Source: Pseudomonas sp. Leaf58
GTDB taxonomy: Bacteria > Pseudomonadota > Gammaproteobacteria > Pseudomonadales > Pseudomonadaceae
Length of the DNA: 64,000 nt
Reading direction: 5' to 3'
Assembly: GCF_003627215.1 (NCBI RefSeq)
Contig: NZ_CP032678.1
Coordinates: 744,001-808,000 of the forward strand
Within the stretch, counting starts at the first letter, position 1; each line of letters begins with the position of its first letter. A program made the position numbers and the translations under genes. Under the pieces are notes generated by a model, which saw only the letters and a program-made list of their open reading frames with translations, was not told the DNA's origin and did not search any database. Positions 15,646-63,321 of this stretch are shown here, piece after piece.

Positions 15646-17105
15646 CTAAAGCCCCAGGGATGTGCCTGCATCATCACGACACACATGGCCCCAAAGCTTG
15701 TGAATCTGTCCATTCTGCCTGGCCGCATCCCGCTGGAAAGCCTGGGACTCCAGCAGGTCGTCCGGGATGAAGGGCAGTGCATCCACACCTTGGGTAAGCG
15801 CTGCCAGGCAGCGGTCGTAGGTGCGGCAATCCGCGTTCACGAGCTTGAGCAGCGCGCCATTCTGGCGCAAGGCCTCCAGCTCCAGTTCTTCGGTTACCAG
15901 TTCCTTGGGCAACAGTGGCAGCACTTGTAGTCCTGGCGCACTGCGTCGAGGAGTAATTCTGGCGAGCAGTTTTCACGCTTGAGCAGGAGGGCGGCGAATG
16001 CCCAGCCGCCCAATAGCGCCTTGATGGTCAGCTCGGGGGTTCGCTTCTCGGCGGGGAGCAGCATGAGCGCCTCGGGTCTTTTCTCCACAACGAACTCAAC
16101 AACCCCTGGCGTCAGCTGGCTGTTGCTCAGGTTTCTGACAACCGTAACGTTGCGATCCACGGCCTCGATGATCATTTCTTCAGGGATCGCTTCTCGGCGC
16201 AACTCGTAAAGCGTCTTCGGGTTGCTAGCGATTGCCTGGCGATAGAAGGACAAGGTCTTCAGCTCAGATGGAAGCGCATTCACCACATCAGCGTTGTTGC
16301 GTATGGCCTCCAAATACACCGCTTCAGTCCGCAATTCAGCAGGCACGAATCTGTCGTTTTTCGAGCTTCGACTCAGCCCGGCGATAACCATTTCCGCTGT
16401 CATCAGCGATTGTGGCACGTACTCCAGGTGGCCGTGCAATTTGGCGATGCTCAGGCAGCGCTCTGCAGTTACGAAGCGCGCAGGCAGACCTTTCAGCGCC
16501 AAGGGGGATCTTTTGATCGCAGTGTCGATCAGTGCTTCGGTATAGCAGCTCTCATCAATTTGGCTGAGCAATTCTCCTCGGATCCCGCAGGCGCTCAGCA
16601 GGATATCCAGGGGGGCGATGGAAAAGCCGTTGCTGTTGGCCCTCCCCAGGATGATGTCTGGGTACAGGCCCACCACCTGGCGCATCAAGGAGTCGGTTAT
16701 GTCCTTGGGATCAACCTGCGAGGGCGAAATGGCTCTGATTCTGATGCCATGTACAATCAGCGCCTCGGTGCGGTGGGATTCTGGCACTTGATGGAAGTTA
16801 TTGCGCCACTGGTCACGATCGAGCAACTCGATGAGCACCCCATCAAAACGCCCAACCAGGTCGACGCCGAACAGCTGCGGCTCGGGTGGCCAGGCGCACG
16901 CCACCTTGATGAAGACCTCGGCCACTGGCGCCAGCTGATCCTCGCCCCGCTTTGTTCTGCGGAACGTTGGCGCGCCAAGCTCCAGCTCCGACACCACCCT
17001 GAACTCAAGCAGTGCATCGGCGTGTTTCTCCACCAGCTCGGCAACAAAGCCACTGCCCTTGAGGTATTTGGCAGCGGCAGAAGGAAATTTGGTGGAGATA
17101 TTCAT
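15646..17105 (-). CDS. Helical-repeat (DUF4116-like) protein ending in SLGL, frameshifted
   Basis: ATG 17105 overlaps the stop of the ART-like gene (ATGA). From about residue 200 the protein is an array of roughly 23-25-residue units with the pattern P-x3-[RL]-T-x-E-x4-A-h, as in DUF4116-type repeats. The frame breaks at about 15922: the upstream frame stops at 15894, while the -1 frame continues the same repeat (LLPKELVTEELELEALRQNG) to a TAG at 15646, ending DDAGTSLGL. Adding one base gives 487 codons. The C terminus matches the tail motif shared by ten other genes here. Annotated across the break, which may be a lesion or a sequence error. Confidence 0.75.
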
Positions 17106-17692
17106 GGTTGCAGACCCTCGCTTGGTGCAGTCCTGGGAGTTTGGGGCATGATGCGCTCGTTGGGAAGGCACTCGATCAAGTGACGATAAATCGATTCGCT
17201 GTCAAACAGTTGAACACCCTCCCCCTCAAGCTCGATGGCTTGTTCGTAGTCCAGGCAGGCCACGACAATGGCTCGCTGGGGCGCCAGGCACACGTTGATG
17301 ACATCCCCAACCCCTTCGAATTCGATCAGGTCGTAGCCATCATTCAAGAGCTGGCGACGCCAGGCCGAGAAGTCGGCAAAGGTTCGGGTGGGTACATGAT
17401 CGCCATCAACTCCAAAGAAACGTTCGTAGTCAGTGGTTTGATAAGCTTTGGCGCAAGGAACGGCTACCACGTACACCCGCGCAGCATCCCCCTCACCCGC
17501 CTCGTAAGCCATTTGGGCGTAGTCGGCAGCGCTGTCTGGAATTTCAGACAGAAACAGGCCCAGTGCGGAATTACGATCCGCTCCTCTCCCCACGCCCCGT
17601 TCGGTGAATGCATGAATGAGCTGGGCTGTGCCGTGAAAGGCCAGGCGGTATTCACCCGAATGGATTTTATGCAGCAGTTCGTCAGGGGTCAT
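17102..17692 (-). CDS. ADP-ribosyltransferase-like protein, 196 aa
   Basis: AFHGTAQLIHAF followed by GRGADRNSALGLFLSEIPDSAADYAQ corresponds to the H-G-T strand and the G-L-[FY]-[LF]-[ST]-x4-A-x-x-Y segment of ART-fold proteins. A later strand (GYDLIEFEGVGDVINVCL) resembles the catalytic-strand region of the fold. The gene is translationally coupled to the helical-repeat protein, which may be its partner or immunity factor. The relation to the protein at 8887 is only at fold level. Enzyme activity is unproven. Confidence 0.55.
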   Translation of the reverse strand: MTPDELLHKIHSGEYRLAFHGTAQLIHAFTERGVGRGADRNSALGLFLSEIPDSAADYAQMAYEAGEGDAARVYVVAVPCAKAYQTTDYERFFGVDGDHVPTRTFADFSAWRRQLLNDGYDLIEFEGVGDVINVCLAPQRAIVVACLDYEQAIELEGEGVQLFDSESIYRHLIECLPNERIMPQTPRTAPSEGLQP

Positions 17693-18334: not shown

Positions 18335-19366
18335 ATGCACACCACCCTCACCGCCTTCAACAAAGCGATTTGCGCCCATGATACCGGCTCAATCCCCGCC
18401 ATCCTCAGCGCCTGCGACGAACAGCTTGCCAGCCTGGTGAGCGCTCGCAATTACACCGAGATTGCTGCCTACCTGCAATCACTGAGTTTCCTAGGCATTC
18501 GCTACCTAACCCATCGACACAGCAGTCTGGCGATGGGTTTACTGCTTGCCCCGCATTTCAAACTCAGCGCAGGGGACTGCCTCAAGGTTCGGCACAACCA
18601 GGTGGCCGCCCTGTGCGCCCGTAAGGTTATGGGTGATGAGGAGATCGAGGCATTGCTGAAAGGATTTGCGCAACAACGTCGCCCCACAGCGTGCCACAAC
18701 CTGCTCGACAGGCACGCACTGGAACGGCAGTGGCAACGAAGGGGGCGCGATTTTCTTGGCGCCTTTGCGTCGGCCCTGGCCGCCCACGCGAATACTCGAA
18801 CCACACCTGAAGCGTGCTGGGTCGAGTTCGCCCTCGTGCACGAGCTTGAACTGGCAGACCTGGCTCAAGACCTCCGTCTGGGCGCCGACCTTGCTGTCGC
18901 CGCGCTGCAATTTGGACTCAAAACGCTGTTGCAGACACTGCAAGAAACCATCCTCTACACACCGGCCAAAAACGACCTCGATCATTTGGCCAAGCTTGAA
19001 GCTTTGGGCGAGCGGTTTGATGCTGAAAGGAAGCGATCACTCCTGGACGAGCTGAAGCCGAACAGCGCCAGTGGAGACGCGCTGAAACTGGCGATCCAGG
19101 TGCACGACTACCACAGCCAGGCCGACTATGGCGCAACAGTGGGTAAACCGAAGGACGTCTGGGCGCGGAGCGACGCTGCTGAAGTCGCGGCCCACCTGTG
19201 GCCTTCGGTGAAAACACGCAACCCATTACCCTTGATTGCCTTGCTGAACAGAGATTTCCCCACACTGGAAAATGCACTGGACGTACAGGATATTTTGCCA
19301 CCTGACCTCTTTAGAGAAATTGACGCAGCTCGCAGCCACTGCCTGGAGACAGATCTTGGACTTTGA
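18335..19366 (+). CDS. Tail-motif family protein, 343 aa, ends LETDLGL
   Basis: Largely helical protein with no recognised domain, ending exactly in ETDLGL. It is a true paralogue of the next gene: around residues 208-255 ILYTPAKNDLDHLAKLEALG aligns with ILRSPAPGDLDHFLKLDALG, and VHDYHSQADY with VYDFHKHDDY. ATG 18335 is chosen over TTG 18329. Its stop overlaps the start of the paralogue, so the pair is coupled. Function unknown. Confidence 0.75.
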   Translation: MHTTLTAFNKAICAHDTGSIPAILSACDEQLASLVSARNYTEIAAYLQSLSFLGIRYLTHRHSSLAMGLLLAPHFKLSAGDCLKVRHNQVAALCARKVMGDEEIEALLKGFAQQRRPTACHNLLDRHALERQWQRRGRDFLGAFASALAAHANTRTTPEACWVEFALVHELELADLAQDLRLGADLAVAALQFGLKTLLQTLQETILYTPAKNDLDHLAKLEALGERFDAERKRSLLDELKPNSASGDALKLAIQVHDYHSQADYGATVGKPKDVWARSDAAEVAAHLWPSVKTRNPLPLIALLNRDFPTLENALDVQDILPPDLFREIDAARSHCLETDLGL

Positions 19367-20474
19367 CCTGACCAATACCCATCCAAAGCCGCAGCTACAG
19401 GTGCTGGCCGACAATTTGTCGTTGGCCCTCGGGCAACACAACCTCAAATTGCTGCAGGAGGTTTCTCACGAGATCCAGCTTGAGCTGCAGCAGTTGGTGG
19501 CGGACAACGACATCAGCGGGCTGGCCTGGTTGGCTCAACACACGGAAAGGGCTTACACCTACTACCTCCTGGATGTGGAGGCGAACAGGGAGATCGGGCT
19601 TTGGCTGCTGCCGCGATTGAGCGTAGAGCATGAAGATGCTGTCACCATTACCGACCACCACCTGGCCACGAAATTTGCGGAAAAAGCCTGCTCGGGCGGC
19701 CAGATTCACAATGCCCACTTCTTCCTGACCAATTTTTACCGGCAGGGTCGCCCCCACTGTAGCCACGGACTACTGCGCGAGGGAAATCTCCTCGACCTGT
19801 TCCGCTTGCTAGAGGAGCCCCAGCAGAAGAGCCTGATCCTGGAAATGGTGGGCAGCATGGCCAGTGATCACGCAGCCGGCAGAGCAAGCCCGGCGCCTTG
19901 GGTGGAGCTGCTGGTGGAGGTAGAGAAAGAGCACCCCGATTGGAGGATGCCCACCTGGGAGGGTGCGAGCCTGGCGGCCCTGCTGAAAGAAAATGGACTT
20001 CACCAGTGGTTCGACGCCAATATCAGGGAGATTCTCAGATCCCCTGCCCCAGGTGATCTCGACCATTTTCTAAAGCTGGATGCACTGGGCGCCAGGCTCA
20101 AGGGCCTGGAGCCTAAGGAGCTGTTCCTGCAGTCGATGTTAGGCTACAGTTCCACCGACAGCGCAGCGGTGCAGAATGATTGCCGGCTCATGATCCAGGC
20201 GATCATGGTTTACGACTTCCACAAGCACGATGACTATAGCTACACCACCTGCACGCATAACAAATCCTGCTTGAACCACATGAAAGCACAAGCGACCAGT
20301 CACATCTGGAAAACGGCGACCGACCAGCAAAAAGAAGCGCTGGTTGAGATCCTCAACCAAGATTTTGAAGACCTGGAAACTACCAGGGTGGTCAAAAAGC
20401 ATTTCGACATCGATCTCTATCGCCACCTGGCTGTTGGGGGCGTCGACGCCCTGGAAGACGACCTGGGGCTTTAA
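19356..20474 (+). CDS. Tail-motif family protein, 372 aa, ends LEDDLGL
   Basis: Tandem paralogue of the preceding gene. I place the start at TTG 19356, which has GGAG seven bases upstream and overlaps the stop of the first gene; ATG 19272 in the same frame would require an 84-base longer overlap. The C terminus is EDDLGL. Helical with scattered His and Trp. A 6-bp-stem hairpin (20474-20489) follows, where it meets smpB. Confidence 0.75.
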   Translation: MDFDLTNTHPKPQLQVLADNLSLALGQHNLKLLQEVSHEIQLELQQLVADNDISGLAWLAQHTERAYTYYLLDVEANREIGLWLLPRLSVEHEDAVTITDHHLATKFAEKACSGGQIHNAHFFLTNFYRQGRPHCSHGLLREGNLLDLFRLLEEPQQKSLILEMVGSMASDHAAGRASPAPWVELLVEVEKEHPDWRMPTWEGASLAALLKENGLHQWFDANIREILRSPAPGDLDHFLKLDALGARLKGLEPKELFLQSMLGYSSTDSAAVQNDCRLMIQAIMVYDFHKHDDYSYTTCTHNKSCLNHMKAQATSHIWKTATDQQKEALVEILNQDFEDLETTRVVKKHFDIDLYRHLAVGGVDALEDDLGL

Positions 20475-20488: not shown

Positions 20489-20953
20489 TCAACGATTATT
20501 CTTGAACGCCTGCTGGATCTGACGGGAAGCCTCGCGAGCTTTCTCGCTGTCACGCTTCTCGTAGTTTTTCTTGCCTTTGGCCAGGGCCACGGAGCATTTG
20601 ACCAGGTGCTTGTTCCACTGCAAGGACAGCGCAAGGCAGGTGAAGCCTTTCTGACTGACGGCTTCAGACAGGGCATCGAGCTCCTTGCGGCTTAGCAGCA
20701 GCTTGCGGGTGCGCAGAGGATCGGGCACCACATGCGTGCTGGCGCTCAGGAGGGGCTGGATGTTCAGACCGAGAACGAACGCCTCCCCGTTTTTGAACAC
20801 AATATAGCTGTCCGTGAGCTGGGCTTTGCCGGCACGCAAGCTCTTGACCTCCCACCCCTCCAGGGCGATACCGGCTTCGATGGGCTTTTCGATGGCGTAG
20901 TCATGGCGAGCCTTGCGGTTCTGAACGATGACCTTTTCCTGATTCTTGGACAT
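20489..20953 (-). CDS. smpB: SsrA-binding protein SmpB (divergent copy)
   Basis: A 154-aa SmpB, which binds tmRNA and brings it to stalled ribosomes. Seen: RKARHDYAIE, EGWEVKSLRAGKAQLTDSYI, HVVPDPLRTRKLLLSRKELD, QWNKHLVKCSVALAKGKKNY and a basic tail, covering the whole family. ATG 20953 (MSKNQEKVI) is the normal start. The sequence differs at many positions from my recollection of typical Pseudomonas chromosomal SmpB, so it is probably a replicon-specific second copy. The matching ssrA gene lies just upstream. Confidence 0.93.
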   Translation of the reverse strand: MSKNQEKVIVQNRKARHDYAIEKPIEAGIALEGWEVKSLRAGKAQLTDSYIVFKNGEAFVLGLNIQPLLSASTHVVPDPLRTRKLLLSRKELDALSEAVSQKGFTCLALSLQWNKHLVKCSVALAKGKKNYEKRDSEKAREASRQIQQAFKNNR

Positions 20954-21123
20954 GCGATGAATCCTTCTCAATCAGCGGTGCCAAGAGGCCTTCATCGGCA
21001 GAAAACCGGAGCCAGGACACAAACTGGAAATGGTGAGAGTGCAAACAATAATACTGAATAATAACAAAAGGGCGTGGGGAGTCAATAAGTCACAATGTAC
21101 GAGATATGCTTATTTCAGAGCAG

Positions 21124-21168: not shown

Positions 21169-21563
21169 TGGTGGAGTCGAGGGGATTTGAACCCCTGTCC
21201 GCCAGCCCATTGCCTTCGGTCAACTACATGCTTAGCCGTGTCTATTATGTTAATCCGTAACCGCCCGATCGGCAGGGTGTTTTGGACGAGTTGTGTAGTT
21301 TTTAGTCGCTACGCCCACAACGTGCTACACGACGATCCTGTTCTGCATGACAATCATTTCGAGTTTACAGGCATCCTCTAATGATCGCTGGCACCGAAGT
21401 GACCAGAAGGGCGTTTCAGCTGCAGTTAAGCAGCGAGACGTGCGCCCTCGAAGGCATTGTCATTGGCAACTATAAGAAGTTGCAACAGTGGATTTACGAG
21501 TTCTGTTACCAACTCGGCATGCACCTAAGGTTCTAAAGCCGGCGTCGAATCCTAATCGACCCC
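21169..21563 (-). ncRNA. ssrA: tmRNA with tag ANDNAFEGARLAA
   Basis: The 5' end GGGGTCG (21563) pairs with CGACTCC at the 3' end, including a G-U wobble at the third pair, the alanine-tRNA-synthetase identity element. The T arm is GGGGTTCAAATCCCC and CCA is encoded (21171-21169). The tag frame at 21467-21426 reads GCC AAT GAC ... GCT GCT TAA, encoding ANDNAFEGARLAA after ATAGTT, the usual resume context. The LAA end is a ClpXP-type degradation signal. The tag is longer than the ANDDNYALAA of P. aeruginosa. Length is 395 nt. It is adjacent to its own smpB. Confidence 0.95.
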
Positions 21564-21667: not shown

Positions 21668-22921
21668 ATGACCACCCTGCCCTTTCACTTCCCCTTCGAG
21701 GGAAGGTCTATTTTTGAATACCAGCTGAAGAGCTATCTCAGGGGCTTTCCCGCCGATGGACTGCAGACAGCCTCCGGCCAAGCGGAAATGGACGGGGTGT
21801 TCGAATCCATTCGTCAAATGGCGGGATCACCGGACTACGCCTACAGCGCCATGATGGCGGCCCGACTGATTGCCGAGCAGCTCAGAAGCAACCTGACTGA
21901 CAGCAGTGTCGAAGGGTTTGCCAAGCACCTGCAGTTTCTGAGTCGATACCGCATCTTTGACCACGCCTTGATCAGCCACATCAAGACGCGGGCGCAGGAG
22001 GAGTTAGCCACTCATTGCGAGCGCGGGGGCACCTTTGCTGACTGGCAGGGGCGCAAGAACGCAGAAGTCTTGTTTGGCGAAGTCAAGCACGTAGCCCCGC
22101 AGTGGAGTGAAGGTTGGGGTTGGCAACTGGAGCATTCGGCACCAGGGTACCAGCTCAAGCAATTGCTGAGTGCCTACCTGGTGGATCCGGATCTACTGGG
22201 AGTAATGAAGCCCTCCCTGGAAAGAGCACTTGCCCTTCATCATTTTCGTGGCAGCCGGGTGATCACGCAACTTGCTAAGGAATGTCCTGAACTCCTGGTC
22301 GCGAGCGGTATCGAGCACCGGTCGATGGGCACGGCAATGGAGGACATTCTGAGGCGGACTGACTGGCTAAGACATCGTGATGTGCATGTGGCCAATGCCA
22401 TCTATGGAAAGAACGGGCCTGCCAAGGCCTACGTGGACGGGATCCATGACAAGCGTCAGGCGTTAACGCGCATTACCGAGAAGGTGCTGAGCTATCGGCC
22501 TGATCCGCGATACCTCGAAGCCTACCTCACCATGGCTGTCGATCTGGCCAGCCACCTGGAAGCTGAAGACAATGACCAACCCATCCACACCATAGCGCGA
22601 CTGCTGTCCCTACCCGACATGGTCGTGGGGCTGGATATTGAAGCGATCACGGAGAGGTTGTCAGCCCTGCGCTTGGGCGATGAAGCGTTGCGCACCGTGA
22701 TGAAGATGCACGAGCTCAATCGGCTCCTGCCCGATGAAAAGGCCTGGGTGCAGGTGATGCTTGATGAGGGCCTCAAGAAAGAGGTGCTGCGGCATTTCGC
22801 GGCGCAATACCCCAAAGAAAAAGACAGGATGTACAAGTTGAACGAGCTGAACCTCCTGGACGATCGCGCTGCATCCAAACGGCTGATGCAAGATGTACTG
22901 ATGGCGGATCTGGGGTTGTAG
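21668..22921 (+). CDS. Tail-motif family protein, 417 aa, ends LMADLGL
   Basis: Helical protein without a recognised domain, ending MADLGL. GGAG lies ten bases before ATG 21668. The N terminus (FPFEGRSIFEYQLKSYL) differs from the pair at 18-20 kb, so similarity to other members is concentrated at the extreme C terminus. It is divergent from ssrA, whose promoter region it shares, and ends in a strong hairpin. Confidence 0.75.
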   Translation: MTTLPFHFPFEGRSIFEYQLKSYLRGFPADGLQTASGQAEMDGVFESIRQMAGSPDYAYSAMMAARLIAEQLRSNLTDSSVEGFAKHLQFLSRYRIFDHALISHIKTRAQEELATHCERGGTFADWQGRKNAEVLFGEVKHVAPQWSEGWGWQLEHSAPGYQLKQLLSAYLVDPDLLGVMKPSLERALALHHFRGSRVITQLAKECPELLVASGIEHRSMGTAMEDILRRTDWLRHRDVHVANAIYGKNGPAKAYVDGIHDKRQALTRITEKVLSYRPDPRYLEAYLTMAVDLASHLEAEDNDQPIHTIARLLSLPDMVVGLDIEAITERLSALRLGDEALRTVMKMHELNRLLPDEKAWVQVMLDEGLKKEVLRHFAAQYPKEKDRMYKLNELNLLDDRAASKRLMQDVLMADLGL

Positions 22922-35487: not shown

Positions 35488-35491
35488 TAGT

Positions 35492-47605: not shown

Positions 47606-47610
47606 GGTGG

Positions 47611-48711: not shown

Positions 48712-48750
48712 TGGTGGATTGCTCGTACGGGAAATAATTCAAGCCCGTAG

Positions 48751-48784: not shown

Positions 48785-48805
48785 TTTATGCTTTATTCGT
48801 TCCAC

Positions 48806-50609: not shown

Positions 50610-50730
50610 GGGTCAATTATGGCAAAACCCGATGACCAATGCCATGGCCACTACCAGATAGCCCACCCTAATGCCCTAAAGCGCCCCAACACCTTGCACC
50701 CATCGGCTACAAAAGGCGAGATCACGGAAA

Positions 50731-51087
50731 TTAGGATATCTCAGTTTTTTTCACCAACCAGGCGCCGAGCTTCTGGCAGACGGGCTGTAACTCAACAAGG
50801 ATTGAGCCAAGATCGGCTAGCACACCTCGTAAGATCAAAATGACAAATAAGAACACTATAACCGTTGATAAGATCACTATGCCTCCCATGATTGGCACCA
50901 AAACCAACGTTTCTATGGCATGGGACACACCTTCCATGGCGATTTTTCCCCCACCCTCGGTTATTTGGTGCAAAATCCACTGGAGCGTCAAACCGGCGCC
51001 CATGCAAAGTAAATAGCCTCCACAGATACAGCCGGTGAGCAGGATAGCGCCGAACGTAGTGGGGTAACGTTTGATGAGAGCTTTCAT
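50731..51087 (-). CDS. Small membrane protein, 118 aa (family copy 1)
   Basis: ATG 51087 gives MKALIKRYPTTFGAILLTG, the signature start of a three-member local family. Two hydrophobic segments (about 12-32 and 60-90) are separated by a polar loop. An in-frame start at 51294 would add implausible sequence. Function unknown; inner-membrane location inferred. Confidence 0.7.
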   Translation of the reverse strand: MKALIKRYPTTFGAILLTGCICGGYLLCMGAGLTLQWILHQITEGGGKIAMEGVSHAIETLVLVPIMGGIVILSTVIVFLFVILILRGVLADLGSILVELQPVCQKLGAWLVKKTEIS

Positions 51088-51188
51088 GTTTTTTCTCCAG
51101 ACGTAGCCATGATTTGAAGGCATGGCATGCATATTTTGTGCGACATGCGCGCACAGTCTTTGGCAACGATCTATCTGCGCTTGCGCTA

Positions 51189-51554
51189 TTAGCACTTGTT
51201 TCGGCAGTATTTGCGCAAGAACCAGTTTCCAAGGGCTGTTGAGATCGCCAAAACAATCCAATAGATGATCGTGCAGATGACGAAGGCCAGCCAAAGAGAG
51301 GAAATGACCATCATGCCACCCAGGGGCCTGAAAACGTAGTCATTGATGCCAGGTGACTGGCTGACAAAACGGACGAATGTCAGACCGTGTTCATTCGTTA
51401 ACCAGTCACAGACAAAGCCAAGGCCATAACACACGGCGTAGGTCGCAAACCCGCCCACCACCAGAACAACCAGCCCCAGCAGTGCCGGATGTTTACGGAC
51501 TAAATTGATCACATCATTCTCTAAAAAGGATTGCATATTGCTGGCGATTTTCAC
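51189..51554 (-). CDS. Small membrane protein, 121 aa (family copy 2)
   Basis: GTG 51554 overlaps the preceding stop (GTGA), so it is coupled to copy 3. Its N terminus NLVRKHPALLGLVVLVVGG aligns with the other two copies, and the two-segment layout is the same. ATG 51536 is an alternative start. It ends in KYCRNKC. Confidence 0.7.
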   Translation of the reverse strand: MKIASNMQSFLENDVINLVRKHPALLGLVVLVVGGFATYAVCYGLGFVCDWLTNEHGLTFVRFVSQSPGINDYVFRPLGGMMVISSLWLAFVICTIIYWIVLAISTALGNWFLRKYCRNKC

Positions 51555-51901
51555 CCTGTTACCCCGCTACCACCTTGCTTGGCGTACAGCCACGCGCCGA
51601 GCGATTGTGCCGTTCGGTAAATGCCCACAGAAAGTGCAATCACGAGTGCGCACACCGCTCCGACAAAAACGACTGCGATCGCCACCCAGAATAGGGTGCC
51701 CGCGCCCCGCATAGGTATGTACAACAGCAGGTTGATGGCCTGAGTTTTCCCACGAGGCAATGTCAAGGCTAGCTGGAAATGCTCCACTGCCCAGGTGGTC
51801 AGAAGTCCCAAGGAGTCCAATCCCAGGTAAACCGCACATATAATGCCCAGCAGCAGAACTGACCCAAAAAGCGTCGGGTATTTCTTGATCAGTTTTTTCA
51901 T
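51551..51901 (-). CDS. Small membrane protein, 116 aa (family copy 3)
   Basis: ATG 51901 gives MKKLIKKYPTLFGSVLLLG, nearly the same start as copy 1. Two membrane segments. It is first of the three copies and lies 90 bases downstream of terZ, so the set is probably read from the terC promoter. Confidence 0.72.
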   Translation of the reverse strand: MKKLIKKYPTLFGSVLLLGIICAVYLGLDSLGLLTTWAVEHFQLALTLPRGKTQAINLLLYIPMRGAGTLFWVAIAVVFVGAVCALVIALSVGIYRTAQSLGAWLYAKQGGSGVTG

Positions 51902-51991
51902 GATTGCACTATTTCTCGGGTTGAACATTCCAGATCTTGCTAAAAAACCCGGTGATTGCGCACCGGGTTTTTCATATGAGCCGATCAAGCG

Positions 51992-52555
51992 TCAGATGAC
52001 GTTCTGGACGTCTTGCATCAGCTGGCTCGCGATCTGGCAGTTGGTCGCATGGCCGATCGCCTTGACCTTCCAGCCGTCGCCGTGGCGATACGCCGAAACC
52101 ATGATCATGGCGGTGTGCTTGCCTTTTTCAGACAGGATGAACTTGGCCTGCTCGGTGCCTTTGTCGTCATACAGGCGACAGCTGGCGTTTTCGACCTTCT
52201 CGAAGTCTTGTTTGGTGAAGGAGTTGACGGTGAACACCAGGTACTCGACGGTGGCCGGCACAGTCGCCAGATTGACGCGAATGGTTTCGTCATCCCCACT
52301 GCCTTCGCCGGTACGGTTGTCGCCAGAGTGATGAATGCTGCCACACTTGCTATCCAGCTGGCGGAACCAGACCTGATCGACCAGCTGCTTGTCCTTGTTC
52401 AGCATCAGGCAGGATGCATCCAGGTCAACACTGGTGCGGCCCAGGAAGCCGGAAACGCCGTCCCAGGCCAGGCCCATGCTCAGGGTGGTGAATTTGGTGC
52501 CATCAGGTTTTTCGAGCGAGATCCGCTGATTTTTCTGCAGGTTGATAACCGACAT
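51992..52555 (-). CDS. terZ: TerD-family protein TerZ
   Basis: A 187-aa TerD-domain protein starting MSVINLQKNQRISLEK at ATG 52555. VDLDASCLMLN, VWFRQLDSKCGSIHHSGDNR and TGEGSGDDETIRVNL carry the acidic residues that bind calcium in this fold; VEYLVFTVNSF matches TerZ rather than TerD. Proposed role: cytoplasmic metal-sensing partner of TerC and TerB. Confidence 0.88.
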   Translation of the reverse strand: MSVINLQKNQRISLEKPDGTKFTTLSMGLAWDGVSGFLGRTSVDLDASCLMLNKDKQLVDQVWFRQLDSKCGSIHHSGDNRTGEGSGDDETIRVNLATVPATVEYLVFTVNSFTKQDFEKVENASCRLYDDKGTEQAKFILSEKGKHTAMIMVSAYRHGDGWKVKAIGHATNCQIASQLMQDVQNVI

Positions 52556-52609
52556 GGAGATTACCTCTAGAGGGCAGCCAGCATGGCCAGCTGCCGTTGG
52601 CATGGGGGG

Positions 52610-53197
52610 TTAGGCGGTGGCAGTCAGACCGGCTTGGGCCAGCACACCGATCAGACCCGAGGCGTAGCCCTGGTTGATGGTGTTGATCTTCCAGCCGCCG
52701 TCGTGGCGATAGATCTCGACCAGCACGACGCAGGTTTCGGTCGAGTAGTCTTCCGACGGGTCGTAGGTGTGGCTGACTTCGCCGGTGTCTTCGTCGATGA
52801 AGCGCACCCCGGTGTTGCTGACCTGGCCGAAGGTCAGGTTGTGGGCCGCCGCGTCGTGGATGGTGATCTGGAACTGGATGCGATGAACATCCGCCGCCAC
52901 GGCGTCCAGGTCGATGGTGATGGTCTCGGCGTCGCCTTCGGCACCGCCCTGGCGGTTGTCACCATGAGTTTTCACTGCGCCATCGGGGCTGACAGGGTTG
53001 CCGTAGAACACGAAGTGCTTGTCACTCAGGGCCTTGCCCTCGGCATTGAGCAGGATGGCGCTGGCGTCCAGGTCGAAGTCGACACCGCCAGTGGCACGCT
53101 TGGCCCAGCGCAGGCCGACTTTCAGCTTTTTCAGCGACGGGTTGGCCTTGGTCAGGTCGATCTTCTGGCCCTTGCTCAGGCTGATGGTAGCAGTCAT
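52610..53197 (-). CDS. terD: Tellurium resistance protein TerD
   Basis: A 195-aa TerD domain: VDFDLDASAILLN, KTHGDNRQGGAEGDAETITI (calcium sites), FQITIHDAAAHNLTFGQVSN and VEIYRHDGGWKINTINQGY. Slightly longer than the typical 192 aa. Lies between terC and terZ. Binds calcium in characterised members. Confidence 0.92.
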   Translation of the reverse strand: MTATISLSKGQKIDLTKANPSLKKLKVGLRWAKRATGGVDFDLDASAILLNAEGKALSDKHFVFYGNPVSPDGAVKTHGDNRQGGAEGDAETITIDLDAVAADVHRIQFQITIHDAAAHNLTFGQVSNTGVRFIDEDTGEVSHTYDPSEDYSTETCVVLVEIYRHDGGWKINTINQGYASGLIGVLAQAGLTATA

Positions 53198-53279
53198 GGT
53201 GTAACTCCTTTCGCTTTTGCTTGATATTGAGTTTCAGGTTTTTCAGTGCCGCCCAACACCTGCTGGGCGGCGCGGTGAC

Positions 53280-54311
53280 TCAGGCTGCAACCGCTTCTTC
53301 GGCAGCCTTCGGGTTGTTCTTCTTCCAGCGCAGGCTCGAAACAATGGCCGCGCCGATCAGGAGGGCACCCGCCAGGGCTGTGAAGACCTCAGGAACATGC
53401 ACGAAACCGGAGGTCAGCATGATCAGGGCGAGGATGCCGATGGCGTACATCGCGCCAGCTTCCAGGTACACCAGTTCGTCCAGCGTGCCTTTTTTCACCA
53501 AGTAGATGGTCAGGCAGCGCACGGCCATCGCGCCGATTGCCAGGCCCAGCATGATGACGATCGGATCCTTGGTGATGGCAAAGGCGGCGATTACACCGTC
53601 CAACGAGAAGGACGCATCGAGTACCTCCAGGTACATGAAGCTAATAAAACCGCTTTTCTTGGCAACATCTGCTACAGCTTCGCCATCTTCGGGGTTCTCG
53701 AAGCAATGTTTCAGCATATCGAGCAAGAAGAAGACGAACAGACCGAGCGCACCGGAGTACAGGAAGGTGGCCGACTGCGCGCCTTCAAGCACCGTGGAAA
53801 CCCCCATCAGCAGCGCCAGCGCAACGATGGTACTGATGCCTTCGATCGAGCCCAGCGAGCCGAATTTGGCTTCCAGGGCGCCCAGCCAGTGATGTTCTTT
53901 CTCAGCGTTGAACAGGAAGCCCAGGAACACCATCAGCAGGAACACGCCGCCGAATGCCGAGATGGCCAGGTGAGCGTCATGCAGGTGCTTGGAATATTCT
54001 TCGGGGTTGTCGAAGACCATTCGCGCTGTATCCATGAAGCCGATGTCTGCTGCGACTGCAACGATACCAACTGGCAGGATCAGGCGAACCAGGAACACCG
54101 CCACCAGGATACCGACCGTGAGGAACATCATTCGCCAGAAATTGCTCATGTCCTTCAGGACTTTCGCGTTTACTACCGCGTTGTCAAACGAGACGCTGAT
54201 CTCCAGGACACCGAGGATCATCACCTTAAACGCAGCGGCAGGGCCGCCGTACATGAATGCGCCGATCATGCAAATGAGCGTGACCAGACCTGTACCCCAG
54301 AAATGTCGCAT
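53280..54311 (-). CDS. terC: Integral membrane protein TerC
   Basis: A 343-aa polytopic membrane protein with about eight or nine hydrophobic segments. Family hallmarks seen: VLEISVSFDNAVVNA, with the conserved acidic residue in the first membrane helix, and LDASFSLDGVIAAFAITKD, with the second. These face a cation path in the LysE/TerC superfamily. ATG 54311 (MRHFWGTGLVTL) is the natural start. It is the membrane hub of the Ter complex and heads the terC-terD-terZ-membrane-protein run. Confidence 0.93.
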   Translation of the reverse strand: MRHFWGTGLVTLICMIGAFMYGGPAAAFKVMILGVLEISVSFDNAVVNAKVLKDMSNFWRMMFLTVGILVAVFLVRLILPVGIVAVAADIGFMDTARMVFDNPEEYSKHLHDAHLAISAFGGVFLLMVFLGFLFNAEKEHHWLGALEAKFGSLGSIEGISTIVALALLMGVSTVLEGAQSATFLYSGALGLFVFFLLDMLKHCFENPEDGEAVADVAKKSGFISFMYLEVLDASFSLDGVIAAFAITKDPIVIMLGLAIGAMAVRCLTIYLVKKGTLDELVYLEAGAMYAIGILALIMLTSGFVHVPEVFTALAGALLIGAAIVSSLRWKKNNPKAAEEAVAA

Positions 54312-54341
54312 TGATTTTTCTCCAGCACGGTGAAGGGTTGA

Positions 54342-54394
54342 TTGCCAAAACGGCAACTTGGGGTGAAGTATACGGTTTATTGGAAGACTGTCAA
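54342..54394 (-). promoter_or_regulatory. Promoter of terC with downstream operator
   Basis: TTGACA (54394-54389), 16-bp spacer, TATACT (54372-54367) on the minus strand. TTGCCA-AAA-CGGCAA (54342-54356) lies a few bases after the predicted start, where a repressor would block elongation. Confidence 0.78.
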
Positions 54395-54867
54395 TAACCA
54401 TCTAAAGAATTATTTACGCTTTGGATATCGGTGCTCAACCAGGTGGAATTACCCCCCTGCTCTTCCACTAAAACCTCGATTTTTAAGGAAAATTCTTGCC
54501 CTGACCAGCTGCAACCCAGGGTTCTGCTGTCTCGATACGACCAAAAGCCGAGGTTTTCCTCCACCAAAAAATCCTCCGGGACATCGGTGCAGTTGATCGC
54601 ACCTGGCGCCTCCAGATTTGCGCCCTCATCGATCCACACGCTGGCCAGGTCTGGCCTGTTTTTGGCCACAAAACCAATGATTTCCGGGCCTGGGGAGGGC
54701 AGCCCCGGAATTTCGATATCATTTTGGGTGCCATCTAGCACGGAGAGAAGCTGGATAAATGCACTGGTGGTTTGCACTTGGGGGGTCTGTGCGAGGGCAA
54801 GCGGCGAGGCCACCAACGATAGTGTTGCAATATATGTGTAAAGGAGTTTTTGGGACAAACTGAACAT
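54391..54867 (-). CDS. Exported hypothetical protein, 158 aa
   Basis: ATG 54867 starts a signal peptide (MFSLSQKLLYTYIATLSLVA, cleavage after LALA). The mature part has two cysteines (about C93 and C120). No family recognised. Its stop is inside the -35 region of the terC promoter, so terC is transcribed separately. Confidence 0.7.
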   Translation of the reverse strand: MFSLSQKLLYTYIATLSLVASPLALAQTPQVQTTSAFIQLLSVLDGTQNDIEIPGLPSPGPEIIGFVAKNRPDLASVWIDEGANLEAPGAINCTDVPEDFLVEENLGFWSYRDSRTLGCSWSGQEFSLKIEVLVEEQGGNSTWLSTDIQSVNNSLDGY

Positions 54868-54916
54868 GGCGACACCTAGGGAAGAGGGTGTCGCCAATAT
54901 AGCATCAAAGCAATTC

Positions 54917-55995
54917 TTATTCCTCGACGACCTCATCGTCGGCCTCGACCTCTACTTCGGCGTCGCCCTTGCCGCCCTTGCCGCCCCGCACGCGCTGGCT
55001 ATTGGCAACACGCTTCTTACGCACTGAATCGAACGCCTGATACATCGAAATCGCAGACAGCGTGAGCGCGCAGCCGATGCGGCCATCGTACGCGGCCTGA
55101 TACAACCCGTCCTTGGTGATGCGTTTGAGCGATCGTACGCTCTTGTCGGTCGGCGTGTGGTTTTCCTCCAGGGTGAAATTCCCGTAGTACACATCACAGG
55201 CCCCCTTGATGATGTGAGAATCCGGCTTCAGCGGGCCCCCGATTTTCTCCATGGGGCGTATCGAAAGTCCGGTCAGGTCGCGCATGGCCACGGCCAGGTT
55301 CGACTCTGCGACCGGGCCTGCGGATGAGCCCGCACGGGGAAACTCCAGGGTATACACGCCTTCGATGGGGTTGTAGCGTTCCACCAGGAGGAAGTGGTTT
55401 TCACGCACATCATGGATGATCATGATGGCTTGATTGCCCTCGGTGTACTCGATGTAGTTGGAGTACCCCTTGGAGGTTTTGACTTCAAACCCAGGGCCTT
55501 CGGCAATCACCTCGCCAACCTTGGCCAGCTTGTGAACGCCTGAATCGGCGTGGTTGAATTTCAAATCCTGAATCAACTCTTCGAGCAAGCCTCGCAGGTA
55601 CTCAGTGACGAACTCATGAAATTCACGGGCGTCATCGTTGACCACGCCGCTTTTCTGGTACCGGGGCAACACGTCGAAATAGGCGTGCAACGCCGGACGC
55701 TCACCGTCTTGATGAATTGCATCCATCAGCACATCCAGGCGCAGCAAGTCCTTGAAGGCATTCAACCCCAGGACTTCCGCAGCGGTCTGGCGCTTTTCAA
55801 CGAACAGCTCAACCGCAGCGGCTGCCAGGGCGAGCGCACCGGAGCGATACAGCTTGCCAATTTCGGAAACTGGGCCAATTTTGCTCTGGATCAGGGCGGT
55901 GAGGGATTCAAGTGTGAGGTGTTCATCGCGGCATTGAACCTTTCGGTCAAGCCAGTCGACTTGAGAAGCAATACTTCAGGATTGAGCGAACTCAT
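54917..55995 (-). CDS. Nudix-like protein of the ter region, about 359 aa, frameshifted
   Basis: ATG 55995 (MSSLNPEVLLL) has AAGAAGG upstream, but its frame stops near 55892. The -1 frame continues with protein-like sequence (WLDRKVQCRDEHLTLESLTA, then GPVSEIGKLYRSGALALAAA) into the long frame that ends at 54917; one added base gives 360 codons. The central region (NHFLLVERYNPIEGVYTLEF, then FPRAGSSAGPVAESNLAVAM) has the layout of a Nudix domain, but the Nudix box lacks the R-E-x2-E-E core, so hydrolysis is doubtful. The C terminus is basic then acidic. The role may be to bind the ter nucleotide metabolite. Confidence 0.65.
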
Positions 55996-58626: not shown

Positions 58627-60219
58627 TTACAGGCCCAGGTCATTCTCCAAGGCGTCTTCCAGGATTTTTCCACTCTCCCACGAAATCTGGCGCACCTGAT
58701 CTTGGGGAATAAACCGATCCGCGTAATGTCGCAACTGGCCAAAGTCCTCAAAGCTGATTTTTGCAAGTTCCGTCATGGACTCCGGGGCGCTCATCAGTTG
58801 TGTGCAACGGTTGAGAATTTTCACCCTGTCGGGATGGCCACTGTGCTTTGCCAGTAGCGCCAAGCCATGAAAATCCGCTGCTGACAAATGCGTTTTCTCC
58901 TGGCTGATGCAGCCAAGGAAATCTTCACCTTCCACGATGAGGAAGTACGCAGAGAGCCGCGCCATCACCGATGAGTCGGAGAAGATGGCTTGCGCCTTCT
59001 TGTCCAGGTAGAGCATTGCCACGACATTCGACAGCGACCCTTCATAGGCACGGTGTCGACTACCCATTTGCTCCAGGCCATCAGCGAGCGTGGCACTGAA
59101 GCTCGCTTCGCTGCTCATCGACCCCAGGAATGCCTGTCCCGTCTCCAGGACATTCGGCTGCCTGGCGGATCGATTCAAATGTGCTTTCAAGCTGCCAGGC
59201 TTTCCACCCGCAGCGGTGAACAGTTTTTCTAAAAGCTCGAAGTTTTTGAAGCTAAGTGGCTGCACTTGATCATTGAAGACTGCTCGCTCGGCAAAATATT
59301 TGATTTCCCGCTGCCCAAACAAAGGTAGTGCAGGCAGGTTGGTCAAATCCAGATGATCGCGTGATATGATTTTGTTTGCCAGTTCCTGGGCGATGCTCCG
59401 CCCCTCTGCAGTCATCACCTGGTCGTACAGGTCGGGATTGTGCTGATGGAGCGCAACCAGGGCATTCTCGGTGGAGGCGGCTCGGATGACAGCAAGGAAC
59501 ACCCCCTGCGCGTAGCCTACATCTGCTCTGGGATCCAAATGAGGCATCCCATCAGCGAACTCCATCAGTGTGGACAAGGTCTGCTGGTTGGCGAATATGT
59601 AATCCACGCCCCATTGAAGATGGCCCTCGTCAAACACCTTGGCGAGCATGAGGCTGATCATTCGCGAGTAGGCATTTTTCTCGTGTTCATGGGAAAACAA
59701 ATAGGGTTCGGCTTGGCAGAGGTTGTTCAGGAGTAGCTTGCACCAGCCGACTTGGGGCATGTTGACGTAGTCGTAATAAATGCTGCCCATGTCGTGCATC
59801 TGCTTGACGGAAGGAACCCCACCCAGTTTCAGAGCGGTATCCGCCATCCTGAAATACTCTTCGTGTTCATCGAGTCGGGCCGAAAACATGTAGGAGGCGG
59901 CATTACCGAGCGCAGTTGGTACCGGGCAGATGGCATAACACCTGGCCATCAAGCCAGTTTCACTGACGATCCAGGTGAAGTTCGCAAGCAGGTACTCCGC
60001 CATGTCTTGGGCATGGCGTACATAGATCCTGCAGGTGGCAGGCACTCCCTCGAAACCCATCAGCTGCTCACAGGCTTCCAGGCTCTGAGTGATGATCCCA
60101 GCGTAATCGATCTCCCGATTCCATTCCCGTGCATGCCCAAGCTCGATTCGAGACATGCGCAGCTGCTCACACAGGCGGTTCATCTCGGTTGCCGAGGTTG
60201 GGCGTATTGAGTCGTGCAT
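58627..60219 (-). CDS. Tail-motif family protein, 530 aa, ends LENDLGL
   Basis: ATG 60219 (MHDSIRPTSATEMNRL) begins four bases after the upstream stop; the in-frame start at 60270 would overlap by 46 bases. Helical, with no recognised catalytic motif. It ends EDALENDLGL. Third gene of a coupled three-member run. Confidence 0.75.
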   Translation of the reverse strand: MHDSIRPTSATEMNRLCEQLRMSRIELGHAREWNREIDYAGIITQSLEACEQLMGFEGVPATCRIYVRHAQDMAEYLLANFTWIVSETGLMARCYAICPVPTALGNAASYMFSARLDEHEEYFRMADTALKLGGVPSVKQMHDMGSIYYDYVNMPQVGWCKLLLNNLCQAEPYLFSHEHEKNAYSRMISLMLAKVFDEGHLQWGVDYIFANQQTLSTLMEFADGMPHLDPRADVGYAQGVFLAVIRAASTENALVALHQHNPDLYDQVMTAEGRSIAQELANKIISRDHLDLTNLPALPLFGQREIKYFAERAVFNDQVQPLSFKNFELLEKLFTAAGGKPGSLKAHLNRSARQPNVLETGQAFLGSMSSEASFSATLADGLEQMGSRHRAYEGSLSNVVAMLYLDKKAQAIFSDSSVMARLSAYFLIVEGEDFLGCISQEKTHLSAADFHGLALLAKHSGHPDRVKILNRCTQLMSAPESMTELAKISFEDFGQLRHYADRFIPQDQVRQISWESGKILEDALENDLGL

Positions 60220-60223
60220 CGTG

Positions 60224-61813
60224 TCAAAGCCCCATGTCGATTTCAAGTAAGTGGGTGGCAAGCTGCTCATTCTGCTTTCGCTCCAGAATATCCGTTACGG
60301 CGGGCTTGGCACCCAGGTTTTCAAGCAGCTTGATCCCCCGAGCCACCTGGTCGACCTCATTGACATCGTCGAAGAGAAAGCCACAAGGCTTGGTGCTAAG
60401 CCTGTGCGCGTACGCTTGGCCAAAGAGGGCGAGCCTCACTGTATGGTCGTTACCGAGTTTCCGGTTTGCCTGGTCAATGGTCAGCAGCTTCGTGAACAGT
60501 TTGCGCAAATCGGCTTCACCGGCTTGCTCAATGTGCGGCGCAACCAGCTCGACAATGTCCAAGGACTCTTCCCTGACAGCTTCAAATACCTGGTGAAGAG
60601 GAATGGAGTCGAAGACATCCCGGTAGGACGAAGAATACTCCAGGCGCAAGCGCATGCGTAGCCATTGGCCTTCGCTGATATCATCCAAGACACTCTTGGT
60701 TGAAACGGACTTTGGGTTGAAGTGGCAGCTTTTAGCCTTCAGCTTCTCATCATAGCGCGCCAGCAAGGGTGCTATGGACTGGTAAAGAAATTTTGCGACT
60801 TCAGGGCTGGCTTTTGTGCCTCGCCTTAGCGGATCCCCCGTCCATTCCAAGATGGCTTTTTGTGTTTCATTGGCCAGTATCTTCTTGCCGATCGATCGGG
60901 CAATGGAAAAACGAGGGTTGTCCTCACTGGAGGGTGCCTTCGGGTCATCATAGGCCGCAATGCTGAACCCGATATCGAGCACATCATCAACAGTAACGGC
61001 CATGCCAGGGTTTGCGACCATGTGCGCACAAGTGCGGTCAAAGAGCAATTGCGACTGGGTTTCAATGATCACCGCTTGAAGGGTGTCCCAAGTATTGTGT
61101 AGGTGGGAGCGTTCTGAATGACCGAACATCAGTCCAACGGAGCGCCAATAGGCACCGGCATACCCCAGGACGTCACAGTTTGGGTATTGCAGCTGCATGG
61201 CGCGAAGAATCGCCTCCAGGTTGTTCGCATCTTGAGTACCATTGGTGCCTGTGCTGATCAACTTCTCGTCGAGCAGGTCGATCAGCTTAGCCAGCTGATC
61301 AAGACCCATGTTCGTCAGCACGTCATCGGTGAGGTAGCCATTTTCCATGAAAGGGTTGGCCTTGACTGCTAGCAGGTATGAAAACACGTCGCTTTCACCG
61401 ACCTTTTCGAAGGGATGATAATCCCAATCCTGCCCCTCTTTGAACTCATAGACGTCTATGCTCGGGTATTGCGCGATGCCCCGCATGCGGATATGCGCGG
61501 CGAACAGGCTGTTTTTAAGCTCCACGGACGCGGTGGCCAGCAGCAGCCTTGAGAGTCGTTCGGGTTTGAACGCCTGCATCGGGAAGCGGTTGAACGCTGC
61601 CGTGACTTCATTTACCAGGGTGCTGCGAGTGTACGCCCAGGAGAAAGCCCGCTGGGCATCAACCGGGGGCTGGTACGTGCACAACTCCCGCTCAATGGCC
61701 CCCCAGAATGTCTCGAACCATGGATCGACTTCATCGTCTCCCAGCCTCCGCCAGCCACCGGCCAGGCCGTTAATGGTGGGTTCCGGTACACGATAGGTGA
61801 ATTTGCTCATCAT
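60224..61813 (-). CDS. Tail-motif family protein, 529 aa, ends LEIDMGL
   Basis: Start ATG 61813 overlaps the preceding stop (ATGA). Helical protein; near its start AGGWRRLGDDEVDPWF and FSWAYTRSTLVNEV. It ends HLLEIDMGL, the only member with Met in the tail. Middle gene of the run. Confidence 0.75.
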   Translation of the reverse strand: MMSKFTYRVPEPTINGLAGGWRRLGDDEVDPWFETFWGAIERELCTYQPPVDAQRAFSWAYTRSTLVNEVTAAFNRFPMQAFKPERLSRLLLATASVELKNSLFAAHIRMRGIAQYPSIDVYEFKEGQDWDYHPFEKVGESDVFSYLLAVKANPFMENGYLTDDVLTNMGLDQLAKLIDLLDEKLISTGTNGTQDANNLEAILRAMQLQYPNCDVLGYAGAYWRSVGLMFGHSERSHLHNTWDTLQAVIIETQSQLLFDRTCAHMVANPGMAVTVDDVLDIGFSIAAYDDPKAPSSEDNPRFSIARSIGKKILANETQKAILEWTGDPLRRGTKASPEVAKFLYQSIAPLLARYDEKLKAKSCHFNPKSVSTKSVLDDISEGQWLRMRLRLEYSSSYRDVFDSIPLHQVFEAVREESLDIVELVAPHIEQAGEADLRKLFTKLLTIDQANRKLGNDHTVRLALFGQAYAHRLSTKPCGFLFDDVNEVDQVARGIKLLENLGAKPAVTDILERKQNEQLATHLLEIDMGL

Positions 61814-63321
61814 AGCCCCAGATCTACCTGAAGTTTGGCTTCGTTAAACCATTCATACGACGAATAGTTCAGGGGGCTGTCGCCTGTGTGCTTGATCCAG
61901 AAGTCCAGCGATTTGAAGCTCCCCGTGTAGAATTCGGCTAGGTATCGTCGGGCTTCAGCCTGATAGCCACACGCCGTTATCATTGCCCACAGGTGCAGAA
62001 AGTGTTCTGCCAGATGAGGATTTCGCTTCACATCACTGGCCACCTTTGGGGACAGCACCTGGCCCCCGCTATCACCCTTTGGCCCATTCTGGCCATTGAG
62101 CGTGGTGAAGTCCTTGAGCAGTTGCATGAAGAGAGCGCCCGAGGGCCCTTCATACCGAAGCTGCTTATCCTCCCAGGACGACTCGTAGTATTGGCAGGAA
62201 AAATCCTGGTCGCTCAGGGATTTGATGTTTTCAAAAATACCCTGGAACTTGCTGTGCAAGCGATCGTTGTTGTTAACCTCGGGGGGTTGACTCAGGCTCA
62301 GGAGCACGTGGTGATCCAGGTTGAGCGTGTCAGGGTTGAAAGTTCTGCACCAATTGAGGGCTGCCTCACTGCGCCAGGGGGTTGCTGAACGTCCCCTCAT
62401 GACTTTACTGATTTCCACACTTACTGAATGACCAAGCACCCGACAGGGATTGAAAAAGCGCGCCGCTTCATTCTCAACGACATAACCGCTGCCATGCACC
62501 TCATGCGGAATAACCTTTTCCGCCGCTGCACCTACCGCGTTGTAGTCAACCAGCAAGCTCGCCCGAGCGTAATCATCAGCGATCGAGTCCTCGATGATGG
62601 ACATCACCTTTGCGGAAAATGCGGTGGCGTCGAGGTAACCCTTTTCTTTGACCCCCTGGATGATGCACTTCACCACACGGTTGATGTCCGGGGAGGCAAT
62701 GTCGTAGTTTCCGGCAGCCACCTGTCTGAACGTGTGCATCACCATTTCGCCACTGATGTTCACCAGCGAGGGCGTGTATTGAGCAAAAATCTCCTTGCCA
62801 TGTTGGACAATGCCGCTGACAAGCTCATCCAGGGCTTGAGTGTCGCCGGTCTTACCGATATGGGTTAACACATCCGTGACAAACACTGCATCAAGCCGCC
62901 CTTGCCCAACCTGTTGTGCCTGAATAACCCCGATGATTTTGAACAGGTCGTCGAAGTGGCGAGATTCGACCAGCCGCTGGGCATAGCCCTCCATCCCCTC
63001 GAAAAAATTCACATGGGTGCGCGCATCCACAAAGCTGCTGTCGGGGTAATGCTGCTCGCCCCAGCGTATGACGTTGCGCAGGGTTTCCTGAATGCGATAG
63101 GAGACTTTTTCAAGCTGGTGCAGCGGCGTGGATTCCAGTGCCTTGCCGACAAGCTCCTGACTGAGAAATCGCATCGCCTGCTCAGATAGCGTTGCAGTCT
63201 CGACGACACTTTCCAACACCGCTTCGAGGGATGCCCGCACGGTGCTTTCAAGCTCAGGATAAGGCGCCCACAGGCGAACGAACTTTCTATCGTCAAGGAA
63301 CGATTTTATTTTCGGATTCAT
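61810..63321 (-). CDS. Tail-motif family protein, 503 aa, ends LQVDLGL
   Basis: First gene of the run, divergent from the HD hydrolase gene with only 40 bases between starts. Helical, ending FNEAKLQVDLGL. It contains GQNGPKGDSGGQVLSP, a short flexible insert. Function unknown. Confidence 0.75.
   Translation of the reverse strand: MNPKIKSFLDDRKFVRLWAPYPELESTVRASLEAVLESVVETATLSEQAMRFLSQELVGKALESTPLHQLEKVSYRIQETLRNVIRWGEQHYPDSSFVDARTHVNFFEGMEGYAQRLVESRHFDDLFKIIGVIQAQQVGQGRLDAVFVTDVLTHIGKTGDTQALDELVSGIVQHGKEIFAQYTPSLVNISGEMVMHTFRQVAAGNYDIASPDINRVVKCIIQGVKEKGYLDATAFSAKVMSIIEDSIADDYARASLLVDYNAVGAAAEKVIPHEVHGSGYVVENEAARFFNPCRVLGHSVSVEISKVMRGRSATPWRSEAALNWCRTFNPDTLNLDHHVLLSLSQPPEVNNNDRLHSKFQGIFENIKSLSDQDFSCQYYESSWEDKQLRYEGPSGALFMQLLKDFTTLNGQNGPKGDSGGQVLSPKVASDVKRNPHLAEHFLHLWAMITACGYQAEARRYLAEFYTGSFKSLDFWIKHTGDSPLNYSSYEWFNEAKLQVDLGL

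Follow-up and report, generated by a model that had tools for sequence, protein, structure and literature searches.

A C-terminal peptide with plasmid-specific dialects on 8–17% of the proteins of Pseudomonas megaplasmids: a probable address tag

The clients of Dot/Icm secretion systems are lineage-specific and fast-evolving, and primases of IncI plasmids are carried along in conjugation. Legionella relies on C-terminal signals to recruit its Dot/Icm cargo; the account of the DotM structure describes a computed consensus with leucine at positions 0 (the last residue), -2 and -6 and glutamate from -9 to -16, in which replacing the final leucine by glutamate abolishes transport (PMC5802825). The conjugative type IV secretion system (T4SS) of the F plasmid likewise carries soluble proteins, its 'conjutome' (32 proteins of chromosomal and at least 16 of plasmid origin are reported), some of them with C-terminal signals (PMC11288057). 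Here we describe a C-terminal peptide, typically ending DLGL at the stop codon, on divergent proteins of a megaplasmid of Pseudomonas sp. Leaf58 (contig NZ_CP032678.1, here C2; 904,163 bases within a 6.34 Mb genome). The starting point was a stretch of 64,000 nucleotides, bases 744001–808000 of C2 (the window), for which a sequence-only reading had listed eleven diverse genes with this tail and proposed a shared receptor.

Among other C-terminal signals, the tag resembles peroxisomal targeting signal 1 (PTS1; SKL) in combining a few terminal residues with a lineage-dependent upstream part on many unrelated clients, although it has a different sequence and belongs to a bacterial plasmid with no known organelle or receptor. 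With ssrA degrons, which are recognised by the adaptor SspB for ClpXP, it shares a short C-terminal peptide; unlike them, it is encoded in each gene and ends LGL and not LAA-like. Conjutome signals, as described in the excerpted report, are varied, C-terminal or internal, and have no common strict motif (PMC11288057), and the roughly 140–165 tagged proteins found here compare with the cargo numbers given above. There is also a close likeness to the Dot/Icm systems of Legionella and Coxiella, with their E-block signals and DotM: in both cases the signal is C-terminal, the clients are many (hundreds for Dot/Icm) and the machinery is homologous, and the C2 tails share the leucine and glutamate register of the published consensus.

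The tail is strongly enriched at the stop codon. At the DNA level, the pattern D-[LF]-G-[LF]-stop had seven matches in the window against 0.23 expected, a number reached in none of 100 shuffles, and with TAA or TGA as stop it had 64 matches in the whole genome, of which C2, with 14% of the DNA, held 62; a reversed control pattern matched three times. Only two DLGL-stop matches occurred in 5.4 Mb of chromosome, ending open frames of 36 and 173 residues, and 297 other genomes of the genus held between 0 and 9 matches each. For protein-level counts, genes were called mechanically from the longest open frames with codon scoring, which leaves totals slightly off annotation and starts uncertain while stop codons are unaffected. 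Two end patterns were used, a strict one ([DE][LMIV][GSA][LFIM] at the stop) and a loose one ([DE][LFMI]x[LIFM] at the stop); both were chosen after the tails had been seen, and are guarded by internal-offset and chromosome controls and by a test that leaves out each protein's own family. The 903 called C2 proteins included 139 strict and 151 loose ends (5.6 expected for the latter), with 81 ending exactly in DLGL, whereas the loose pattern placed 5, 10, 20, 30 or 50 residues inward gave only 4 to 9 matches per 895. The concern that the tail might be equally frequent among any proteins of the replicon was thus not borne out, since the C2 proteins show the pattern no more often than by chance at these internal offsets. 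A 180 kb chromosome sample had one tailed protein in 157 (0.8 expected).

The relatives of C2 include pMPPla107 (971,889 bases), pPL1 of P. silesiensis (1,168,067 bases), CP136011.1 of Pseudomonas sp. FeN3W (909,734 bases; here FeN3W) and a plasmid of P. serbica IT-P366 (1,059,468 bases). DnaE, DnaB, DnaG, ParC/ParE and EF-Tu are encoded on both FeN3W and C2. Loose ends numbered 166 of 981 proteins on pMPPla107 (6.3 expected; 147 exactly DLGL) and 70 of 864 on FeN3W (5.7 expected; 18 strict and none exactly DLGL). Samples of 500 kb from pPL1 and 400 kb from the P. serbica plasmid gave 85 of 524 (3.2 expected) and 76 of 437 (2.8 expected), tagged fractions that may be high because the stretches were partly picked where DLGL matches sit. 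Across the five megaplasmids the tagged share is therefore 8–17% of called proteins, and about one-sixth on C2. Nor is the tail freely lost by homologues, a second possibility raised at the outset: 67 of the 78 pMPPla107 reciprocal-best-hit partners of tagged C2 genes are themselves tagged. Database relatives agreed for two families examined; all four matches of the window protein encoded from 58627 end DLGL (one of them near-identical), and among the seven viewed of nine matches of a second tagged family six end DLGL or ELGL and one DLCL.

The tag has a core, namely a hydrophobic residue at -6 and [DE]-L-G-L at -3 to 0, which is looser on FeN3W, and upstream preferences that differ between plasmids. 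On C2 these are E-13, E-9, L-6, E-5, D/E-3, L-2, G-1 and L0 (of 151 tails, leucine in 130 at 0, 128 at -2 and 136 at -6, and glutamate in 60 at -9 and 64 at -13); on pMPPla107 they are R-10, D/E-9, F/L/M-6 and G/A-5 followed by DLGL; on pPL1 L-13, K-12, G-9, F-6 and S-5 followed by DLGL; and on FeN3W K/R-10, K/R-9, I/V-6 and S-5 followed by [DE][LF]x[LI]. Only on C2 is the upstream part acidic; it is close to neutral on pMPPla107, slightly basic on pPL1 and basic on FeN3W, with a mean net negative charge over -14 to -4 of +1.40, -0.14, -0.62 and -1.79, respectively, against -0.09 to +0.2 in untagged proteins. Informative positions lie some three to four residues apart, and models from two body families, the second of low confidence there, place the tail in a final helix that stops two or three residues short of the chain end. 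This suggests that one helix face together with the chain end may be read by a partner.

To what extent these dialects belong to the plasmid was assessed with position tables of residues -13 to -4, excluding the last four residues and leaving out the protein's own body component. Tails were assigned to their own plasmid in 430 of 472 cases (C2, 135 of 151; pMPPla107, 156 of 166; pPL1, 76 of 85; FeN3W, 63 of 70). The same held for orthologous pairs, whose members took on the local dialect: 125 of 134 tails in 67 C2/pMPPla107 pairs, 30 of 32 in C2/pPL1 pairs and, most weakly, 17 of 22 in C2/FeN3W pairs were placed on their own plasmid. Between C2/pMPPla107 orthologues the last four residues were 88.8% identical and the bodies 27%, with only 17.9% identity over -13 to -4 compared with 12.3% for random pairing (standard deviation 1.0). 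The dialect is thus a property of the plasmid far more than of the protein family. The dialect of pPL1 is also that of the P. serbica plasmid, 68 of whose 76 tails were assigned to pPL1; untagged genes of these two plasmids are 76.7% identical (median).

Such plasmid-wide uniformity might be produced at the DNA level, by a mobile 3' cassette or by gene conversion spreading the tail within a plasmid. The plasmid-specific tails fit this, as does the clustering of tagged C2 genes, which adjoin each other 62 times against 25.0 in shuffled orders. The codons, however, vary: many synonymous ones are used, all three stops occur, and the 81 DLGL ends of C2 are encoded by 70 distinct 15-mers. Selection therefore acts on the peptide and not on the DNA, and homogenisation of this kind is extremely improbable.

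The proteins that carry the tag are long (medians of 386–422 residues compared with 193–231 for untagged proteins) and diverge quickly. Median identity between C2 and pMPPla107 reciprocal best hits was 26.6% for 78 tagged pairs and 49.5% for 471 untagged ones, and a match of any kind on FeN3W was seen for only 19 of the 151 tagged proteins of C2, against 389 of 752 untagged. Among the 151 tagged C2 proteins, two had segments resembling transmembrane (TM) helices, compared with 91 of 562 untagged ones (at least 150 amino acids), which also sets the tag apart from PEP-CTERM and sortase signals. Pfam scans covered 138 tagged proteins of C2, 74 of 166 of pMPPla107 (excluding the first 80 usable ones and 12 that cross stretch borders) and 69 of 70 of FeN3W. 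The strongest C2 matches were to DUF6685 (1e-46) and TerD (2e-8), one each and not traced to a gene, followed by MarR_2 (3e-4); the TerD proteins found by BLAST are untagged. DUF4116 was matched by three tagged FeN3W proteins, while matches to Sir2 (EFGL end), PARP (EFEM end) and SSB (DDIPF end) are probably chance fits to the loose pattern.

Could all of this be one huge and very diverged paralogous family, with a last helix kept for folding and no receptor at all? Profile–profile comparison at a probability of at least 50 linked 10 of 561 tagged pairs but none of 1156 tagged–untagged pairs (and none of 72 finished untagged–untagged pairs), and in a model of the tagged C2 gene 244753–246009 the tail forms a confident last helix, which ends before LGL. 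This model is all-helical with a mean predicted local distance difference test (pLDDT) score of 64.5 and block means of 81–94 over residues 361–418; its 343 Foldseek matches against the PDB at an expectation value (E) of 10 included none at 0.001 or better, and the weak top matches were mostly repeat solenoids. For the 58627 protein, the model is likewise all-helical and ends in a helix, at low confidence (mean pLDDT 57.9; tail 51–63). The 472 tagged proteins of the four plasmids nevertheless fall into 167 body components (73 with a single member), with 93 body families on C2. If folding were the constraint, the dialect should go with the body family, but it goes with the plasmid. The dialect test argues strongly against pure common descent, which we consider very improbable.

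Taken as a whole, the offset control, the retention of the tail by orthologues and the dialects strongly support the earlier proposal that proteins with divergent bodies but a common C-terminal peptide share a receptor, and we regard it as highly probable that the tail is an address tag read by a receptor that is encoded on the plasmid and co-evolves with it. Such a tag would span some 14 residues, with a fixed core and a lineage-specific upstream face at -13, -10, -9 and -5, and its carriers would be mostly soluble, fast-evolving proteins, about 140–165 on C2 and on pMPPla107 and about 70 on FeN3W. A single plasmid-encoded reader evolving with the tag is favoured because the dialects follow the plasmid, down to the dialect shared by P. 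serbica and pPL1; a chromosomal reader is unlikely, as plasmids from a single genus have dialects that diverge even in their charge.

This last point also bears on the possibility that the tail is a degron, recognised by a protease adaptor so that tagged proteins are kept low or are removed on a signal. Proteases classically recognise short hydrophobic C-termini, C2 and FeN3W carry SspB homologues (C2 486734–487135 and FeN3W 739900–740301, 33% identical), and C2 also encodes a transfer-messenger RNA (tmRNA) and SmpB. SspB is, however, present on only two of the three tagged plasmids that were read whole or nearly so, the Clp-type ATPases (PF10431) are chromosomal in all three of their matches, and chromosomal proteases would not account for opposite dialects within one genus. 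The plasmid SspB was discarded as reader of the tag because pMPPla107, the plasmid with the largest number of exact DLGL tails, has no match to it. A degron is accordingly an improbable explanation.

If the tail is an address, the leading reading of its destination is secretion. C2, pMPPla107 and FeN3W each carry a Dot/Icm-type (mating-pair formation type I, MPF-I) secretion system that includes a type IV coupling protein (T4CP) and DotM. On C2, orthologues exist for the T4CP of FeN3W and for the FeN3W proteins annotated as IcmP(DotM), DotA, DotD, DotG, DotH and DotI, with three more labelled DotB, DotC and DotO from their position and kind; the DotM of C2 matches that of Legionella at E 2.8e-19. 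The P. serbica plasmid has a T4CP and the pPL1 sample other T4SS genes. At E 1e-100, a T4CP search across 390 genomes of the order matched only the genome itself; a search of genome contigs matched four loci, with the P. serbica plasmid as the one close relative, and one of viral contigs had no matches. Transfer of pMPPla107 is reported to need a T4SS (PMC4105467). We therefore suggest, tentatively, that the receptor is the coupling apparatus of this system and that the tagged proteins are mating cargo: the DotL-like T4CP, DotM and adaptors would recruit them, and they would be injected into recipient cells during mating. As an overall explanation, an address tag with its receptor and a link to secretion is plausible, though short of probable. 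In its fullest form, which is more tentative still, a plasmid-lineage-specific and orthogonal code would mark 8–17% of each plasmid's own proteins (about 70 to 165, mostly without known domains) for a Dot/Icm-type mating apparatus, as an effector arsenal injected together with DNA into recipients or neighbours.

Several observations weigh against the link to secretion, two of them being tests of its simplest form. The first concerns the V. parahaemolyticus plasmid NZ_CP062152.1, which has an orthologous secretion system without the dialect tag and is the one untagged relative among the plasmids examined. Its loose ends (25 of 1031 against 8.3 expected, none exactly DLGL) have no visible common upstream pattern, and three of them read DDIPF, as in SSB proteins. 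The secretion system alone therefore does not imply the tag. The second concerns DotM. The authors of its structure suggest that in other systems DotM may have evolved together with different tails (PMC5802825), and a charge swap between plasmids would be predicted. None was seen in the aligned segment around the Legionella R314 site from C2, pMPPla107, FeN3W and the Vibrio plasmid: this segment does not co-vary with the tails and is identical in C2 and FeN3W despite their opposite tail charge, which makes DotM alone an unlikely reader and led to its rejection as a candidate. Both the Vibrio and the DotM results could be reconciled with secretion through an adaptor that only the tagged plasmids possess. 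Also on this side, the tag is stricter than Dot/Icm signals, with its near-invariant DLGL end, and the FeN3W, pMPPla107 and pPL1 dialects are not acidic as an E-block is; the scanned tagged proteins have almost no Pfam domains and include no recognised T4SS substrate; relaxases (PF03432, PF07514), the one certain kind of mating cargo, have no match in the genome; and no receptor gene was identified.

Candidates for the receptor were sought among the 293 untagged core groups that C2, pMPPla107 and FeN3W have in common. A screen of their net charge found a few with a matching order of signs, within ordinary scatter (standard deviation 6.7), and nothing was drawn from it; an example is the group of the C2 gene at 343687, with +9, -2 and -13 on C2, pMPPla107 and FeN3W. 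A mostly untagged paralogous family of 17 members on these three plasmids, one of them tagged (C2 343687–345279, 576697–578160 and 80004–81137, with relatives), is a possible receptor family; two of its C2 members had no Pfam match. The one PDZ model run (PF13180) had five matches in the genome, all chromosomal.

The dialects fit equally well with a tag that works inside the cell, by which helical proteins would dock on a plasmid-encoded scaffold, complex or compartment, serving for example establishment, anti-defence or segregation, with no export. The scarcity of TM-like segments and the all-helical fold of both modest-confidence models are in keeping with this, and the 149 of 293 untagged core groups for which phmmer gave no match to the Vibrio plasmid leave room for a receptor. 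An encapsulin shell (PF04454), the partner of encapsulin cargo peptides and the only shell sought, had no match in the genome, and we know of no precedent for a scaffold with some 90 client body families. Assembly of this kind is on balance unlikely, although less so than a degron.

Within the window, nine of the eleven genes listed by the sequence-only reading have the tail intact at their stop codon. On the forward strand these are 18335–19366 (343–345 amino acids depending on the start; CLETDLGL), 19272–20474 (up to 400 amino acids, the frame being open upstream of the earlier start at 19356; ALEDDLGL) and 21668–22921 (417 amino acids; VLMADLGL). On the reverse strand they are 33557–34513 (318 amino acids; VLGADLGL), 36948–38087 (379; ALGRELGL), 38089–39261 (390; LLEHDLGF), 58627–60270 (547; ALENDLGL; a body family found on four megaplasmids), 60224–61813 (529; LLEIDMGL) and 61810–63321 (503; KLQVDLGL). 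Relatives on pMPPla107 end FAEDLGL for the gene at 18335, LGSDLGL for 33557, FMGDLGL for 36948, FGHDLGL for 38089 and LSRDIGL for 60224; those of 61810 end MAGDLGL on pMPPla107 and IDSELCL on FeN3W, and those of 21668 end MSIDLGL and VLSDFEL on the same two plasmids, each in the local dialect. The earlier statement that only the pair at 18335 and 19356 can be aligned also held among the nine, as both of its genes fall in a single body component and each of the remaining seven in a separate one.

The remaining two genes, both on the reverse strand, reach their tails only through a change of frame. In 35729–36951 the open frame 35737–36951 ends FWKMT, with EDDLSL outside it in another frame, and the pMPPla107 orthologue ends IFAIDLGL. 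In 15646–17171, which has a weak DUF4116 body, the frame 15894–17171 stops short of 15646 and SLGL is read in another frame; orthologues end SDSSLEM and HDEFTP, for which reason its membership is doubtful, and it is probably not a canonical tagged gene. Two more window genes fit the loose pattern (WSELHF and LDMVI ends) and look like chance matches. Split frames were also seen elsewhere on C2 (88077–90541 and 898647–900619), and a homologue of DotA is among the split C2 genes; these may reflect assembly error or decay, which limits the gene calls there.

Amid the tagged genes of the window lie the plasmid's own SmpB gene (20489–20971, reverse strand) and tmRNA (21169–21563, reverse strand), the latter encoding the tag peptide ANDNAFEGARLAA; pMPPla107, FeN3W and the Vibrio plasmid also have matches to SmpB. 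Next to tagged genes there are, in addition, three tRNA genes (Leu-taa, Leu-caa and Met-cat; 35249–35568, forward strand). At about 42300–55800 on the reverse strand, several genes are reciprocal best hits, some viewed as pairs, to a tellurite-like stress-gene region of FeN3W that is annotated with StiP, HpcH/HpaI, VWA, TerD, ATP-grasp and phosphoribosyltransferase genes.

The sequence-only reading knew of no described system with this tag, and we likewise found no earlier report among the open-access papers searched; no text there had DLGL together with Pseudomonas. C-terminal sorting signals are a known kind of signal, and a strict tag with plasmid-specific dialects on 8–17% of the proteins is new as far as searched. 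Many genes of giant plasmids lack a known function, and here one peptide singles out about one-sixth of the proteins of C2, which suggests that they share one destination. The natural differences between dialects, including the reversal of charge, provide ready-made specificity controls. Should the mating apparatus be that destination, these environmental bacteria would have an injected repertoire about half the size of the 300 or more proteins reported for Legionella, and the dialects would stop co-resident plasmids from using each other's machinery.

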